The notes beneath the pieces are model-generated. The model worked only from the letters and a program-made list of their open reading frames with translations. It did not search any database and was not told where the DNA came from. DNA of 25,921 bases, from assembly GCA_031288005.1 (NCBI GenBank), contig JAITSE010000051.1, forward strand, positions 1 to 25,921. The letters are read 5' to 3'. Shown here one piece after another: positions 1 through 15,981 of this stretch; the first letter of the stretch is position 1; every line of letters starts with the position of its first letter. Made by a program: the position numbers and the translations under genes. The DNA comes from Treponema sp. (GTDB taxonomy: Bacteria; Spirochaetota; Spirochaetia; Treponematales; Breznakiellaceae).

Positions 1-210
1 GCTCAGGAATACACGGGAATTAGTGGAACCCTACGGGTTCCTTGGGAGTTTTGCGGCCCCTGCAATCAGGCAAAGCTGAGACCGGAGGTCTCAAGATTGC
101 TTAGGGGTTTTCAAGCGGCCCCAAGGGCCGCTCTGGTCCAACCCGCAAAACTCCAGGAGACCCCCGCAAGCGGTGAAACCGAAGGTTTCTTCGCCGCTTG
201 CGGGGGTCTC
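1..210. repeat. Structured intergenic element, copy 1 (nested palindromes)
   Basis: This region has no gene and is almost entirely palindromic. A hairpin with 7-bp arms (25-31 with 35-41) is followed three bases later by GGAGTTTTGCGG at 45-56. That sequence pairs perfectly with CCGCAAAACTCC at 143-154. Inside this outer stem are an arm pair cccctgcaatc (57-67) with gattgcttagggg (94-106), a hairpin at 78-92 and a hairpin at 115-131. Two bases after the outer stem comes a perfect 17-bp inverted repeat (157-173 with 194-210), itself holding GAAACC-GAA-GGTTTC (175-189). The last arm overlaps the stop codon of the minus-strand gene that begins at 1141, so it may also serve as that gene's terminator. 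The same plan recurs at 12574-12650 and 13628-13737. Confidence 0.7.
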
Positions 211-1141: not shown

Positions 1142-1161
1142 GACATATCCTCCAAATTTTA

Positions 1162-1330
1162 TAGTAGACTTGTTCGATAACTTCAGTTATTGTCGAACCA
1201 GAGGTTCGCCAAATTCCGCTTAAAACAGCAAAATGCATTGCATTTTGCAAGACTTGTTCAACAACCCGAACCCGTCAGCCAACCGAAGGTTGGCAGGGTT
1301 CATTAGACTAGGTTTTTGAACAAGTCAAGT
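1162..1330. repeat. Palindrome-rich region with GACTTGTTCGATAA repeat, copy 1
   Basis: This is the divergent gap between the beta-barrel gene and recQ. GACTTGTTCGATAA starts at 1167, pairs imperfectly with a segment ending TCGAAC (1198), and is followed by AAATTCCGCTTA (1211-1222). The same three blocks recur at 5056-5095. Next come a 10-bp-arm palindrome GCAAAATGCA/TGCATTTTGC (1228-1248) and a 10-bp inverted repeat GACTTGTTCA (1251-1260) with TGAACAAGTC (1317-1326). The latter encloses GAACCC/GGGTTC and GCCAACC-GAA-GGTTGGC (1278-1294). The left part covers the likely promoter of the minus-strand gene, so a regulatory role is possible. Confidence 0.6.
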
Positions 1331-1342
1331 ATACAATAAGCC

Positions 1343-4995: not shown

Positions 4996-5172
4996 TTGAA
5001 AAAATACGCAAAAGCAGGGATAATTTTTTTGTTTGCATTTGCCGAATTTAGAATAGACTTGTTCGATAAATCAGCTATCGAACAAATTCCGCTTACCGGC
5101 GGGGTAACCCTCAATATGAATAAATTCCTGGCCGGAGAGTTTAAGCCCAAAGGGGCGGAGAATTTGCACTGA
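4996..5172 (+). CDS. Possible small exported peptide (doubtful)
   Basis: A TTG-started frame of 58 codons begins MKKYAKAGIIFLFAFAEF, which resembles a short signal sequence, and a GGGAAG lies about nine bases upstream. The frame ends two bases before the next gene's ATG. Against it, the middle is made of dispersed intergenic repeats: GACTTGTTCGATAA at 5056 and a variant of the GGGGTATTAAACC element at 5098-5123. The start codon is also rare. It could be a relic, a small secreted peptide or chance. No family was recognised. Confidence 0.25.
   Translation: MKKYAKAGIIFLFAFAEFRIDLFDKSAIEQIPLTGGVTLNMNKFLAGEFKPKGAENLH
5056..5095. repeat. GACTTGTTCGATAA repeat, copy 2
   Basis: GACTTGTTCGATAA (5056-5069) contains one arm of a perfect 10-bp hairpin, TTGTTCGATA (5059-5068) with TATCGAACAA (5076-5085). 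It is followed by ATTCCGCTTA (5086-5095). The same order of blocks occurs at 1167-1222 upstream of recQ, where the hairpin is less perfect. Confidence 0.6.
5098..5123 (+). repeat. GGGGTATTAAACC element, divergent copy
   Basis: The sequence ggcggggtaaccctc followed by aatatgaataaa matches the copies at 5983 and 9114 except for a three-base gap in the core (GGGGTA-ACCC) and TGAAT in place of CGAAT. It sits directly after the GACTTGTTCGATAA repeat, so the two may form one composite unit here. Confidence 0.5.
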
Positions 5173-11323: not shown

Positions 11324-12523
11324 TTAGAGGCTCTTCACCTTGGCGGCGCGGTTCGCCTTGAACTCGTCCCTCGTCTTTTTGCGGAATTCCTCATCCCGCA
11401 GCGTCTTTAAAACAAGCAAGGCAAGCGCCTGAGCGCCTTTCTCCATAGCGTCGAAGGCTTCGGCTTTAAGGGTAGCCTCGGCAAACTCCCTGGTATGAAG
11501 GGCAAAATCCTCACGGGTAATGGAAATGAGCGGCTGCACGGACGGGCAGCGGTAACTGACATTCCCCACGTCCGTAGACCCCAAGGGCGGCGATACGCTT
11601 TTCACAGGCAGCCCGAGGCTTTGGAACAGCGCCTCAATTTCCTCTTCCAGCGTGGCAATGCGGATCATATCGGCGAAATCATCGCAGCTCCGGCGCAGTT
11701 CCACGCCGCAGTCCATGGCCAAAGCCGCTCCCCTGGCGCATTTGCTTATAATGTCGTCCATAAGAGCCAGGTTTCCCATGGAAGCGGCGCGAAATTCAAG
11801 GCTCACGGAAGCGCGCCCCGGTATCACGTTGGCCGCGCTGCCCCCGCCGCTTATGACAGCGTTTACATAGGCGTCAGGGGTGAAACATTCACGCCGGGCA
11901 TCGATAAGATCGATGAACTTCCGGGCCGCGGCCAGCGCCGACCGTCCCCGCCAAGGAGCCGCTACCGCGTGGGCGGTCTGCCCCGAGAATTCCACCACAT
12001 ATCCCCTAAGGCTCAGGGCGGCCATATTCGCCTGTGAGAAGCCGCCGCCGCCGCAGCTATGCATCATCACGGCAAGATCAAGCCCGTCAAAGACGCCTTT
12101 CTCAGCCATGAGTATCTTTGCCCCGGCAGTCTCCTCGTCAGGAGTCCCAATGACGCAGACTGTTCCGTTTATAAGGTCCTTGAGTTCCGCCAGGGCAAGA
12201 GCGGCAAGCACAGACAAAGCGCCGTGCAGGTTATGCCCGCAGCCATGCCCCACCTCAGGCAGAGCGTCATATTCCGCCAGAATCGCGGCTTTCGGCCCCC
12301 TGCCGGCATCAAGGATCGCCCGGAAAGCCGTAGAAAGCCCGCGGAAGGGATACTCCACCGTGTATCCGGCTTTTTTAAGAATGGAAACCATCTTGCGGGA
12401 GCTTTCAAATTCCTGCCCGGAAAGCTCAGGATTCGCGCAGAGATCATCGCTTAAGGTTTTCGCTGTTCTTGCGTGTTTTTCAACCGCTTCTTTTACGCGG
12501 CAGGCAATTTCCTGCTTGTCCAT
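11324..12523 (-). CDS. M20 family amidohydrolase (M20D type)
   Basis: This is a 399-residue metal-dependent amidohydrolase or peptidase. It has the M20 core: AILAEYDALPEVGHGCGHNLHG with H93, C95 and H97, the Glu pair in GTPDEETAGA (130-131), and MMHSCG with H155. A lid or dimerisation domain follows from about residue 172. It ends with the substrate-side motif GSTDVGNVSY. The sequence resembles the aminoacylase/AbgB/PM20D2 group, which cleaves N-acyl amino acids or similar amides; the exact substrate is unknown. GGAGG six bases before the ATG fixes the start. No signal peptide is present, so it is cytoplasmic. It appears to be a single-gene unit. Confidence 0.9.
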   Translation of the reverse strand: MDKQEIACRVKEAVEKHARTAKTLSDDLCANPELSGQEFESSRKMVSILKKAGYTVEYPFRGLSTAFRAILDAGRGPKAAILAEYDALPEVGHGCGHNLHGALSVLAALALAELKDLINGTVCVIGTPDEETAGAKILMAEKGVFDGLDLAVMMHSCGGGGFSQANMAALSLRGYVVEFSGQTAHAVAAPWRGRSALAAARKFIDLIDARRECFTPDAYVNAVISGGGSAANVIPGRASVSLEFRAASMGNLALMDDIISKCARGAALAMDCGVELRRSCDDFADMIRIATLEEEIEALFQSLGLPVKSVSPPLGSTDVGNVSYRCPSVQPLISITREDFALHTREFAEATLKAEAFDAMEKGAQALALLVLKTLRDEEFRKKTRDEFKANRAAKVKSL

Positions 12524-12573
12524 GACATTCCTCCGGTCTCAACATACCTGGATAACTCTGTTTAGGCAAGGCT

Positions 12574-12650
12574 GAAACCTGCTCCGCAGGTTTCTAAGGA
12601 GTTTTTGAGCCCTTTGTTACTGTGAACCTTTTAGGCGGCAAAAAACTCCT
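12574..12650. repeat. Structured intergenic element, copy 2
   Basis: A hairpin GAAACCTGC-TCC-GCAGGTTTC (12574-12594) is followed three bases later by GGAGTTTTT. AGGAGTTTTT (12597-12606) pairs with AAAAACTCCT (12641-12650). The hairpin, three-base gap and GGAGTTTT stem repeat the plan of the elements at 1-210 and 13628-13737. No downstream GAGAC hairpin is seen in this copy. Confidence 0.65.
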
Positions 12651-12790
12651 CGCACTTTTTTCCCCGGAAAATCAGTCCGTGGATAAGTCAGTGGACTTGT
12701 TCTCACGGCTTGTACTGTCATACACGGGATGTGTACACTCATACAAAGCTTTTAATTTTGGATTAGAGAGCCTGACCCAAAACTAATTGA

Positions 12791-12939
12791 CCATCGGAAA
12801 TTGCGTTTCCGATGGTTTTGGACAGGCTTGAGCCTACGGCTCTTGCAGTTTTTCAGGCTTTCAGCCTTGCAAAACTGCGAAAAATAAGGTTGCTTTCCCA
12901 AAAATTGAAGTTGCGGAAACTTCGTTTCCGATGGGAAAG
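12791..12939. repeat. Structured intergenic element, variant with GCAGTTTT/AAAACTGC
   Basis: Several stems stand in a row. CCATCGGAAA (12791-12800) pairs with TTTCCGATGG (12806-12815). GAGCC-TAC-GGCTC (12830-12842) is followed two bases later by GCAGTTTT (12845-12852), which pairs with AAAACTGC (12871-12878) around a small AGGCT/AGCCT hairpin. CTTTCCCA (12893-12900) pairs with TGGGAAAG (12932-12939) around CGGAAAC-TTC-GTTTCCG (12914-12930). The GCAG/CTGC stem differs from the GGAG/CTCC of the other copies at both paired positions. The last stem ends 21 bases before the next gene's ATG. Confidence 0.6.
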
Positions 12940-12960
12940 TCTCTAGGGAGAAAAAAGATA

Positions 12961-13527
12961 ATGAAAATCGACTATGTTCCCCGGCAAGACTTGGAATTTG
13001 ACGGCTGGCTCAAGTTCATCGTTCTGTATACAGCGGAGAAATGCTCAGGCAAGCCGCCTGAATGGGACCACATTCCGCAGACGGCGTTGACGGCGCTCAA
13101 GGACGCTCTGGCGGCCTGGACCGCAGCCTACGAGCAGACTCTTGTCCCCCACACTTCGCCTGAGACAAAAGAGAAAATCCGGATCCGCAAGACTACGGAG
13201 AGCGCGATTCGGGGCTTCGTGAACCGCTGGCTCCGCTTCGAGCTTGTAACCAACGAGGACCGGGACAAAATGAAGATTCCAAACCGGAACGCAAGGCCCG
13301 CGCCGGTCCCCAAACCTCATGAAGCGCCCTATATCCATGTCTCAACGCCCCTGCCCCGCATTTTTCGCTTCCGTTTCCGCGGCTCAGACTCTATACGCTG
13401 GGGCAAGCCCGCCCGCGTTCACGGGATTGAGGTCTACTGGATCATCGCTGACGCGCCGCCTGAAACGCTCGAAGGCTTTCCGCACTGCACCTTCGCCACG
13501 AAAAGCCCCCTCGATCTGAGCTTCTAG
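12961..13527 (+). CDS. Treponemal unknown-function protein, ended by an in-frame amber codon
   Basis: The ATG at 12961, behind AGGGAG, opens a 188-codon frame starting MKIDYVPRQDLEFDGWLKF; an earlier ATG at 12931 lies in a palindrome and is less likely. From memory the sequence matches a family of about 220 residues found in many copies in treponemes and some Bacteroidetes. It has an N-terminal helical half (EWDHIPQTALTALKDALAAW, then a bridge with LVTNEDRDKM) and a C-terminal beta half (FRFRFRGSDSIRWGKPARVH, then EVYWIIADAP). Function is unknown. The frame stops at TAG 13525-13527 after SPLDLSF, but the family's usual last strands follow in the same frame. TAG also ends the radical SAM, transporter, pncB and cvpA genes, so it is a normal stop here. 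Confidence 0.75.
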   Translation: MKIDYVPRQDLEFDGWLKFIVLYTAEKCSGKPPEWDHIPQTALTALKDALAAWTAAYEQTLVPHTSPETKEKIRIRKTTESAIRGFVNRWLRFELVTNEDRDKMKIPNRNARPAPVPKPHEAPYIHVSTPLPRIFRFRFRGSDSIRWGKPARVHGIEVYWIIADAPPETLEGFPHCTFATKSPLDLSF

Positions 13528-13629
13528 GACGCGCATCGCGGCAAGAAAGTTTTCTTCGCAGCCCGTTGGGAGTCAGGCCCCTCCAAAGAGGGCCCCGAGA
13601 CAGCCATTTTCAGCGCGATTGTTCCTTGA
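13525..13629 (+). pseudogene. In-frame continuation beyond the amber codon
   Basis: Reading on after TAG in the same frame gives 33 residues starting DAHRGKKVFFAARWESGPSK and ending FSAIVP, then TGA at 13627-13629. This matches the conserved end of the family as I recall it, a GK-V-F-RWEN-G-KGPWS-I-SAIIP pattern. A single amber codon therefore separates the two parts, with no frameshift. It is either a recent nonsense mutation, a suppressed or read-through codon, or a sequencing error. Confidence 0.7.
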
Positions 13630-13737
13630 AACTTTTTCGTCTCTTCGAGACGAAAAAGTTTCTTAGGAGTTTTGGGAACCTTCGGTTCCATGGTCCAAAG
13701 GACCTAAAAAACTCCAAGAGACTGCTTTAGCAGTCTC
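13628..13737. repeat. Structured intergenic element, copy 3
   Basis: A perfect 16-bp hairpin GAAACTTTTTCGTCTC (13628-13643), loop TTC, and its complement (13647-13662) overlaps the TGA at 13627. Three bases later GGAGTTTT (13666-13673) pairs with AAAACTCC (13708-13715). This encloses GGAACC-TTC-GGTTCC (13675-13689) and GGTCC-AAA-GGACC (13692-13704). Two bases after the outer stem follows GAGACTGC-TTTA-GCAGTCTC (13718-13737). Order and spacing match copy 1. The first hairpin could also act as a terminator. Confidence 0.7.
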
Positions 13738-13763
13738 AGCCGTCTGCCGATATTTGAAAAACA

Positions 13764-14807
13764 ATGCGCGTTAAAATCCCCTTGAGCGGCTGTCTGGCGG
13801 GAATTTGTATTCCGCTTCTCCTGGCGGCGTTTTGCGAATGGGCGGAAGCCCAAAATCTGCCTCTTCCATCCACGCTTCCGGTTATAGAGCAAAATCGCAG
13901 GCCGGCGGAAAGTCTTTTCCCCTCCGCCTATTTTATGAAGTACCTTGCGGGCGTCGAGGCCCGGGAATCCGCCGCGCCCTACTGGGTTCCTGCCGGACCG
14001 GATACAACGCGGGAAGTCAAGGCCGGCAATGAACGATTGATCCTGTTGAATAATGATATTCTGGCTTTTTACGGACATCCGCTTTCAGTAAAAATGGGCA
14101 TCCTGGGCAGACATTCGATAGAAGAACTGGACGCCATGCTTACAAAGCTGGCGGAAGAGTATAACGCCGCGAACGGAGAGCGGGGGGTCCGTAAAGCCTT
14201 CTATATAATTTACGGGACCGCATGGCCCGAAGGCGAAATAGGCATAATTCAGGAAGAAACACTCCAGCGGTACATACAGTACGGCATTGAAAAGGACATT
14301 CTCGTATTCATCGATCATCAGATTGGCCGGTACAAGCCGGTGGAAGCGATCAAAAAACTTTTTCCCTATCTGCGCTACTCCAATGTGCATCTCGCGCTGG
14401 ACCCGGAATGGCGGACTACCAGGCCCATGCGGGAAATCGGCGGGGTTACTGCCGAAGAAATAAACGAAGCGCAGCAGCTTATGTCGGACTATATGCGGGA
14501 ACAAAACATTCATGGAGAGAGGATACTGATGATCCACCAGTTTAACTGGCGGATGATTCAGGGACGGGAAAAAGTAAAAAACGATTATGAAGGCGTCCAG
14601 CTTGTCCACTGCGCCGACGGCTTTGGCAGCCCGGCCACTAAAAGGGATTCCTACGCGCATAACGCTCAGGCGCTCAATATGCCTGTTAAGGGATTTAAAC
14701 TTTTTTATAATTTCAATATCCCCGGAGCGGGTTACGACAGTCCTATAATGAGTCCGGCGGAGGTCTTCGCTCTTAAGCCCAGGCCCTATGTGATTATTTA
14801 CCAGTAG
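13764..14807 (+). CDS. Exported protein of unknown function, actinobacterial-like family
   Basis: The protein has 347 residues. A signal peptide (MRVKIPLSGCLAGICIPLLLAAF, likely cleavage after AEA near residue 29) indicates export. The globular part has LAFYGHPLSVKMGILG (about 100-115), LVFIDHQIGRYKPVEAI (about 178-194), LALDPEWRTTRPMREIG (about 210-226) and ERILMIHQFNWRMI (about 252-265). The pattern YGHP / D-Q-GR / LDPEWR / HQF matches, as I recall, secreted or lipidated proteins of unknown function in Actinobacteria. Alternating strands and helices suggest a TIM barrel with Asp/Glu at strand ends, as in glycoside hydrolases, but no activity is known. No Shine-Dalgarno sequence is seen; a weak TTAGCA-N18-TATTTG lies just upstream. 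Confidence 0.8.
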   Translation: MRVKIPLSGCLAGICIPLLLAAFCEWAEAQNLPLPSTLPVIEQNRRPAESLFPSAYFMKYLAGVEARESAAPYWVPAGPDTTREVKAGNERLILLNNDILAFYGHPLSVKMGILGRHSIEELDAMLTKLAEEYNAANGERGVRKAFYIIYGTAWPEGEIGIIQEETLQRYIQYGIEKDILVFIDHQIGRYKPVEAIKKLFPYLRYSNVHLALDPEWRTTRPMREIGGVTAEEINEAQQLMSDYMREQNIHGERILMIHQFNWRMIQGREKVKNDYEGVQLVHCADGFGSPATKRDSYAHNAQALNMPVKGFKLFYNFNIPGAGYDSPIMSPAEVFALKPRPYVIIYQ

Positions 14808-14883: not shown

Positions 14884-15981
14884 GTGATAACTATAGCGTT
14901 TACGGGGGGCGGTACAGGGGGGCATATTTTCCCCGGTCTGGCCGTGGCCGCGGTTCTTCAAAGCCTGACGCCCTGCCGTATTTTCTGGATAGGCTCGAAA
15001 GCCGGCATGGATCGAAGTATCGTTGAAGAAGGCGGGTTTAAATTTTTCGGTATCTCTTCGGGAAAGTTTAGACGGAATTTCTCTTTGCGGAATTTTACCG
15101 ATGCTTTCAGGGTTCTCCTGGGTTTTCTGGCTGCCCGCAAGATACTTATGCGGGAAAAGCCGCTTCTTCTTTTTTCAAAAGGCGGATTTGTGAGCGTCCC
15201 GCCATGTATTGCGGCGGCGTCCCTCAAAATACCGGTGTTTACCCATGAATCAGATTACAGTCCCGGTTTGGCTACCAGGATAAACGCGAAGTTCTCAAGC
15301 CGTATTTTTACCGCTTTTCCAGATACCTCCGCTTTCTTATCCTCAGGACTTAGGAAGAGGGTCACGCTTGCGGGCAACCCCATACGCCCGGAATTTCGCA
15401 CCGGAAATTCAGTCCTGGGCAGGGCCTTTCTTGGAGCGGGCGAAGGGGACCGGATCCTCCTTGTCCTGGGCGGCAGCCTTGGAGCCAGGCAAATCAACGA
15501 ACTGGTCCGCGCGGCACTGCCTGATCTTACACGGTTGTACTTGGTGGTTCATCAGACGGGTCCAAAAAGTGAATGGCGTGTTCCAGCGGAGGAGCGGTAC
15601 AGGTCATATCCTTTCATCCGGGGTGAGCTTCCCCATATAATAGCCGCCGCGGAACTTATCCTTTGCAGAAGCGGCGCCGGAACGGTCTGTGAATGTGCGG
15701 CTGCGGGGAAGCCTCTGGTACTAGTCCCCCTGGCCGGTTCTGGAACCCGGGGGGACCAAGAGGAGAACGCCGGGTATCTAGAAAAAAAAGGAGCCGCTGT
15801 GGTGCTGTCAGGGAATGTTACGCCGGCAATACTGCTGGAAGCGATAAAAACGCTGGCGGAAGACGAAGAAAAGCGCATGGATATGGGGAAGGCGGCTTTC
15901 CGCTTTGCCGCTCTTGATGGGGCGCGGATCATAGCCGAAACGATAAGAGATGCGCTTAAAACCGGGAATTTTACAGGATAA
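14884..15981 (+). CDS. murG: UDP-GlcNAc transferase MurG (lipid II synthesis)
   Basis: MurG adds GlcNAc to lipid I to make lipid II at the inner face of the cytoplasmic membrane. The 365 residues start at GTG with ITIAFTGGGTGGHIFPGLAV, the glycine-rich acceptor loop. Next are HESDYSPGLATRI (usually HEQN-PG-ANR), AGNPIRPEF, VLGGSLGARQIN, and the UDP-GlcNAc site RSGAGTVCECAAAGKPLVLVP. The loop GSGTRGDQEENAGYL replaces the common A-DHQ-NA form, which I recall as typical of spirochaetes. Length is normal. It heads the murG-cvpA-holB-atoS-atoC run, though a gap of about 200 bases separates it from cvpA. Confidence 0.96.
   Translation: MITIAFTGGGTGGHIFPGLAVAAVLQSLTPCRIFWIGSKAGMDRSIVEEGGFKFFGISSGKFRRNFSLRNFTDAFRVLLGFLAARKILMREKPLLLFSKGGFVSVPPCIAAASLKIPVFTHESDYSPGLATRINAKFSSRIFTAFPDTSAFLSSGLRKRVTLAGNPIRPEFRTGNSVLGRAFLGAGEGDRILLVLGGSLGARQINELVRAALPDLTRLYLVVHQTGPKSEWRVPAEERYRSYPFIRGELPHIIAAAELILCRSGAGTVCECAAAGKPLVLVPLAGSGTRGDQEENAGYLEKKGAAVVLSGNVTPAILLEAIKTLAEDEEKRMDMGKAAFRFAALDGARIIAETIRDALKTGNFTG

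Follow-up and report, generated by a model that had tools for sequence, protein, structure and literature searches.

We consider it probable that the multi-hairpin loci in a 25,921-nucleotide stretch of Treponema sp. DNA (contig JAITSE010000051.1; the whole stretch is called the window here) are divergent copies of a TD-2-type repeat and that the family is REP-like palindromic DNA. Among relatives, the repeat has a conserved plan, a wide multi-copy spread and covariation, it is present or absent at the same gaps, and one copy lies in frame in a phage gene. The TD-2 family itself is already catalogued; what we favour as new is that TD-2 behaves like REP-type palindromic DNA. If this is true, a candidate small RNA family is re-read as mobile palindromic DNA, and the annotation of treponeme genomes changes.

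Hairpin loci of the window and their relation to TD-2

All four loci of the original prediction were present in the window, with a common plan of a perfect hairpin (A), two or three bases and a stem (B). The foot of stem B is GGAGTTTT/AAAACTCC in loci 1-3 and GCAG/CTGC in locus 4, where a G-to-C change is paired with a C-to-G change. The spacer between A and B is TTG, TAA and TTA in loci 1, 2 and 3, and TT in locus 4. A further hairpin (C) lies two bases past stem B in loci 1 and 3. In TD-2 (RF03162, clan CL00124), hairpin 1 is followed after about 14 nt by hairpin 2 (cGAGUUUu...AAACUCg), and two bases separate hairpin 2 from hairpin 3. Read on the opposite strand, hairpins 2 and 3 correspond to B and A of the window loci. 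The plus-strand order would thus be TD-2 hairpin 3 (A), 2-3 nt and hairpin 2 (B), with hairpin C of loci 1 and 3 on the side where TD-2 hairpin 1 would be. The features are as follows; R1 is a covariance model built, with hairpin 3 first, from 33 TD-2 copies (32 distinct), none of them from the window.

25..41 (+), locus 1 hairpin A, 7 bp, position like TD-2 hairpin 3
42-44, locus 1 spacer TTG, between hairpin A and stem B
45..154 (+), locus 1 stem B, 12 bp, GGAGTTTTGCGG at 45-56 and CCGCAAAACTCC at 143-154, with smaller hairpins nested within
157..210 (+), locus 1 hairpin C, separated from stem B by AG (2 nt)
12574..12594 (+), locus 2 hairpin A, 9 bp, then TAA; within the R1 match 12569-12680
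12598..12649 (+), locus 2 stem B, GGAGTTTT at 12598-12605 and AAAACTCC at 12642-12649
12830..12842 (+), locus 4 hairpin A, only 5 bp, then TT; not significant alone
12845..12878 (+), locus 4 stem B, GCAGTTTT at 12845-12852 and AAAACTGC at 12871-12878, with an inner hairpin
13628..13662 (+), locus 3 hairpin A, 16 bp, perfect, then TTA; within the R1 match 13623-13734
13666..13715 (+), locus 3 stem B, GGAGTTTT at 13666-13673 and AAAACTCC at 13708-13715, with two inner hairpins
13718..13737 (+), locus 3 hairpin C, 8 bp, AA (2 nt) after B; aligned by R1 to TD-2 hairpin 1

Two bases of locus 1 hairpin C belong to the stop codon of ORF 209-1141 on the minus strand, and the last base of the TGA at 13626-13628 is the first base of locus 3 hairpin A. 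Locus 2 is placed between divergent ORFs, and a run of six T (12656-12661) begins six bases past its stem B. Stem B of locus 1 resembles the long B form of genome G073, a likeness without support from R1.

Other features were seen nearby. The ORF at 12931-13527 ends at TAG, and its frame is open further to TGA 13626-13628. Homologues of this ORF numbered 19 in G073, 11 in G081 and one each in G001 and G141 among ten genomes searched. Those of G073 and G081 often lie 3' of short tandem-repeat arrays (repeats of ~19-23 bases by eye), and the repeats before them differ from copy to copy (L263, L264, L267, L270, L273, L275, L277). Just ahead of locus 4, at 12769-12828, a nested palindrome AGCCTGACCCAAAAC..GTTTTGGACAGGCT encloses a perfect 11-bp hairpin. 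A second hairpin family consists of a GTTC-rich palindrome ending in GAACA or similar and then a TCCGCTTA-like stretch, after which an AAAAT/ATTTT hairpin and AAGACTTG come in places; its sites include window 1156-1337 and 5059-5085, and L201:11450, L212:1501 and L215:18224 (G122, G151, G073).

The original prediction knew of no named family for these loci. Their plan is found in the hairpin-2/hairpin-3 core of Rfam TD-2, while the window copies themselves are below Rfam detection. When G073 loci were scanned with Rfam, TD-2 matched weakly at two places, with 40.5 and 37.9 bits (gathering score 48.7). No TD-2 match was found in the window at the gathering score of 48.7 bits or at E up to 2, nor in 12540-13770 at E up to 10, and MIR/mir matches were far under their gathering scores. 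Without filters, R1 ranked locus 3 first in the window (13623-13734, 20.2 bits, E 0.0041) and locus 2 second (12569-12680, 15.6 bits, E 0.041); the next window score was 13.3, locus 4 reached 4.9 bits, locus 1 was not matched as A-B, and the top score in 95.6 kb of unrelated DNA was 13.7 bits. With filters, R1 gave 62 matches (E up to 1, 78 sources), every one of them in a Treponema locus or in the window; the 37 viral control loci gave no match. In this larger search locus 3 was found at E 0.052 and locus 2 was not recovered.

The window loci appear to resemble TD-2 in the order and close spacing of hairpins 3 and 2 with a GAGTTTT/AAAACTC foot, in the third hairpin of loci 1 and 3, and in coming from the same bacterial group. 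They differ in that they have no ATCCNT-type loops and no recognisable hairpin 1, that 3 nt rather than 2 precede B in loci 1-3, and that the B interiors are longer with nested hairpins; locus 4 has the 2-nt spacer of TD-2, but a GCAG foot. No clear hairpin 1 (ATCCNT-type loop, ~14 nt beyond hairpin 2) was present in loci 2 and 4, and loci 1 and 3 have instead a hairpin 2 nt away, with loops other than the ATCCNT type. Since the copies do not reach TD-2 itself, we call the loci TD-2-type and not TD-2, and the family link is based on plan, spacing and, for two of the four loci, model R1. The window loci are real and, in our reading, divergent relatives of the TD-2-type Treponema multi-hairpin repeat. 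TD-2 reportedly has its source in a NAR paper of 2017. Our literature search gave no title on TD-2 or Treponema palindromes among the matches listed, and TD-1 and TD-2 have no occurrence in the main text of PMC2864571.

Specificity, spread and pairing of the hairpin plan

The strict pattern (GGAGTTTTN{10,40}AAAACTCC) occurred twice in the window against 0.01 expected (100 shuffles). With a relaxed foot (G[GC]AGTTTT..AAAACT[GC]C within 100 bases), four window stems were found, three of them beside a hairpin (6 bp or more, 1-5 nt away), and 500 dinucleotide shuffles of the whole window gave one relaxed stem in total and none beside a hairpin. Locus 4 on its own is not convincing; its hairpin is too short to count. 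The strict pattern was present in unrelated viral contigs too (at least 109 distinct stems), which we used solely as a control. A hairpin of at least 8 bp at 1-5 nt accompanied 43/74 Treponema-family stems, and 1/109 viral stems among the matches listed. When loci fetched via TD-2, proteins or long-B patterns were excluded, 40/69 Treponema stems had an adjacent hairpin, a set partly drawn from loci picked because their genomes are pattern-rich; the one-per-genome set gave 10/30 with a hairpin 1-5 nt away. Among stems of at least 9 bp, the adjacent hairpin was found for 36/60 in Treponema vs 1/40 in viral contigs (the latter among the matches listed). These results indicate that the A-B plan is specific to Treponema loci, and the structured intergenic family proposed in the original prediction recurs in Treponema relatives.

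A search of all fetched loci for perfectly paired feet of the NN[AG]GTTT kind gave 113 distinct A-B units. Their spacers were 2 nt in 55, 3 nt in 39, 4 nt in 11, 1 nt in 6 and 5 nt in 2, and their feet were GGAG in 83 and GAAG, TGAG, AGAG, CGAG, GCAG and others in the rest, each with the matching partner. Because pairing was required and TD-2-fetched loci were included, this search tells which feet occur and not how strongly they covary.

The MurG protein of the window (14884-15981) is 81% identical to the MurG of isolate Iy174_bin49, a Treponema MAG (genome G001), which served as the centre for choosing related genomes. The strict pattern was absent from G001 and present in 72/195 family genomes (G122 25, G081 23, G073 12, G151 10, others 0-5), with 0-3 matches per genome for a reversed-pattern control. 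In pattern-rich genomes the stems are species-specific, and near-perfect hairpins are strung together with other hairpins. G073 had 40 copies of a long form of B (62-64 nt, interior partly conserved), and seven others of 190 genomes had 1-5 each; the reversed-pattern control for long B gave 0 among the matches listed. The interior gives long B a direction, and A was on the same side in 28/29 units, these being the units in which an A hairpin at exactly 3 nt was demanded; one unit (L215) is also flanked by a hairpin on the opposite side.

TD-2 matches were found in 83/190 family genomes (52 above cut-off; at most 20 candidates scored per genome), in 0/14 control genomes and in 58/392 phylum genomes including G359 (39 above cut-off; 10 candidates scored per genome). 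At least 5 of the 23 GGAGTTTT stems of G081 fall within TD-2 matches. Flavo-1 RNA (RF01705) scored above its gathering score at L337:1435-1511, L337:419-503 and L327:1041-1122, and two of these three matches overlap a TD-2 copy end by ~11 bases. Other dispersed repeats of ~100-220 bases, with many matches in six G359-related genomes, lie at L371:7615-7753, 11440-11665 and 15193-15587.

Pairing in TD-2 was nearly complete. In the alignment 97.8% of cells were paired, vs 75.9% in shuffles and 39-51% when slid, a figure favoured by the picking of copies with a structure model. Changes on both sides were seen in 21/27 pairs, with 188 double vs 9 single changes. G-U pairs made up 11/845 paired cells (1.3%), compared with 27/385 (7.0%) in 19 tRNAs of the same loci, a small and mixed set set against high-scoring TD-2 copies whose G-U share is possibly lowered. 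Scarce G-U fits selection or correction on DNA, because a G-U pair on one strand reads A-C on the complement. Only the G-U share, and not the ratio of double to single changes, favours DNA, because the tRNAs also show few single changes (151 double vs 15 single).

The original prediction would be refuted by a lack of further copies or of covariation in the outer stem; in relatives, further copies were found and the outer stem covaries. It had also read the paired foot change of locus 4 as selection on structure. Matched foot changes do occur elsewhere, in TD-2 copies, but the change alone is no proof of selection on RNA, since palindrome repair or selection on folded DNA gives the same pattern.

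Turnover of copies, gene context and competing readings

A 12-kb stretch of G159 (L338) carries nine TD-2 copies above cut-off and reads as a prophage. All nine copies are on the strand opposite the phage genes, so that hairpin 3 comes first in the gene direction. An integron attC array was considered for these same-orientation copies (G159:C20) and set aside as less likely in a stretch that reads as a prophage. We compared it with 13 stretches with related phage genes from ten genomes (flanks of ~64-83% identity, segments read by eye), and the nine copies were mostly missing from the same gaps. At sites 2890, 4485, 4866, 6098 and 6710, no intact copy was present in the 7, 11, 7, 5 and 6 stretches with both flanks aligned, with a possible hairpin 1 remnant in G169 at site 6098. 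Site 7370 has a degenerate copy in G160 and none in six others, and site 9191 a different intact copy in G005 and none in two others. At site 9574, G160 shares hairpin 3 and has a damaged hairpin 2, and four others have none. The copy at site 1271 is common to G152, and one other stretch gives no clear reading.

In 7/9 copies the match includes the stop codon of the ORF upstream. At sites 4866, 6098, 7370 and 9574, homology on the left reaches 0-1 base from the match in several relatives, and at site 2890 it stops ~24 bases before. No clear target-site duplication was seen at the prophage copies (copy 1271 left out); at site 4866 a gene start apparently occurs on both sides, in diverged form. 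Copy 1271 sits in frame within a phage gene. Residues at the place of this insert are present in about half (41-60 by column) of the best 120 of 1012 homologous phage proteins, with more than one kind of insert among these 120; the insert was seen as TD-2 at the DNA level in G159 and G152 only.

One G359 locus, compared with four relatives (flanks of 87-95% identity), gave a graded series. The copy is complete in G359 and damaged in G367; G214 has only hairpin-3-like sequence, G321 has a fused remnant, and G226 has no trace of the copy. This series shows turnover in which gain and loss are not separable, because the differences partly resemble internal deletions. Presence and absence at the gaps of relatives make a mobile palindromic repeat, which the original prediction had listed as an alternative, the best fit.

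Gene context was called from mechanical ORFs, with G159 copy 1271 left out. Among the 42 copies of the family set, 8 of which come from the single G159 prophage, 23 have hairpin 3 at the 3' end of a gene and 4 have it at a 5' end; 8 copies were called within ORFs and 7 had no left neighbour. The 29 copies of the G359-like set were split into 10 at the 3' end, 12 at the 5' end and 7 within ORFs, and the 10 vs 12 therefore speak for no general link to gene 3' ends. Copies occur in gaps between ORFs of every relative orientation (convergent, divergent, co-directional), and in some cases inside an ORF, which counts against the suggestion that the fold hides or exposes a ribosome site. Such a switch was rejected; the feet vary in pairs and have no consistent place before start codons.

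The same positions bear on whether the repeats are structured RNA, that is, transcribed sRNAs or 3'-UTR or intercistronic hairpins (terminators, mRNA-end protection) under selection on RNA, which we regard as unlikely. Rfam classes TD-2 as sRNA, and hairpin 3 is at a gene 3' end in 23/27 family-set copies with a callable left neighbour, but the G359-like set has no 3'-end bias (10 vs 12 of 22, plus 7 within ORFs). The hairpin-3-first strand is the phage-gene strand in all nine G159 copies, although the strand that Rfam assigns is then the antisense strand in this prophage. Terminator-like GGAGTTTTT hairpins with a T run after them were found downstream of flagellin-like ORFs (as read), and the six T after locus 2 stem B would suit the same role, whereas no T run directly follows hairpin C in loci 1 and 3 or B in locus 4. 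The few G-U pairs also argue against RNA.

Palindromes made by replication slippage and template switching alone, with neither a mobile element nor a function and with the common foot as a mutational attractor, are a distinctly less probable source. Nested and tandem hairpins in locus 1, G122 and G073, G122 loops in both senses (AAC and GTT) and partial deletions between hairpins at the G359 locus are consistent with such slippage, but it leaves unexplained why many species share the foot, the spacing and the order of the three hairpins, and why whole ~98-nt copies are found at gaps that are empty in relatives. That the 12.5-13.76 kb block is one insertion, with ORF 12931-13527 carried between hairpin arrays as the ends of a larger mobile unit, seems highly improbable. 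By eye, the gene upstream of the 13764 gene is a different one in G001 and G030, where the stretch listed ahead of the 13764 gene has no hairpins, and the ORF homologues are many in hairpin-rich G073 and G081 (19 and 11 among the ten genomes), some of them beside hairpins. However, hairpin-rich G122 and G151 have no homologue, and several of the eleven ORF copies listed lack hairpins on at least one side.

Read as REP-like palindromic DNA, the repeats would be short non-autonomous elements that come and go as whole units at the borders of genes, in many cases over stop codons. Their hairpins may be kept perfect by acting, or being copied, in the form of folded single-stranded DNA, or alternatively by correction of palindromes against themselves, and the elements would later decay, shed modules or take up other hairpins. 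We infer that TD-2 copies move as folded DNA and that they were gained rather than lost. The window copies presumably share the turnover history of copies in the relatives, on which, and not on the window, their mobility rests. In a broader form, which we offer as possible but doubtful, the TD-1/TD-2 'RNAs' would not be RNAs but Treponema-wide mobile DNA with 2-3 perfect hairpins at a near-fixed spacing of 2-3 nt. A putative non-RAYT enzyme would recognise the fold and spacing and not the sequence, each lineage would have its own drifted set, and the window would represent a nested, late stage. Recognition of fold and spacing would leave the sequence free to drift in pairs and give each lineage a new species-specific set. 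The extent of TD-2-type repeats is probably underestimated, because repeats defined by fold and spacing easily escape sequence repeat finders. Whether some enzyme recognises a pair of hairpins at a distance of 2-3 nt, and if so which one, is a testable question.

Comparison with REPs and Rickettsia palindromic elements

No mobilising enzyme was found when Y1 and hairpin counts were compared in 20 relatives. Four genomes (G006, G007, G008, G009) had 46, 33, 97 and 34 Y1 (PF01797) matches and no strict GGAGTTTT pattern, and G081, G151 and G086 had 23, 10 and 5 strict patterns and no Y1 match. RAYT as the driver was rejected, as Y1_Tnp counts in these 20 genomes do not track hairpin counts; the absent link between Y1 transposase copy number and the strict pattern is one difference from REP/RAYT systems. 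Among the hairpins listed around fetched Y1 genes, one had such a foot, a GGAGTTTG pair near that of G002. The Y1 open frames listed for G006-G009 were mostly of 140-240 aa.

REPs are regarded as mobile palindromes of other bacteria, and the GTAG REPs described in PMC3733652 often supply a stop codon or lie within ORFs. The repeats studied here differ from REPs in that the window loci have no GTAG or CGTC end outside the stem; their foot tetranucleotide is part of the stem, GGAG facing CTCC in loci 1-3 and GCAG facing CTGC in locus 4. They resemble REPs and BIMEs in being short, palindromic and multi-copy, in standing in pairs or arrays, in lying mostly between genes and in having species-specific sequences. 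High copy number, overlap with stop codons and occasional placement within ORFs, which are traits of REPs, were all found for TD-2 in the relatives.

Rickettsia palindromic elements are a second known system, in which copies of ~100 bp can sit in frame inside genes. Sequence and host differ between these elements and TD-2, and the in-frame placement is alike.
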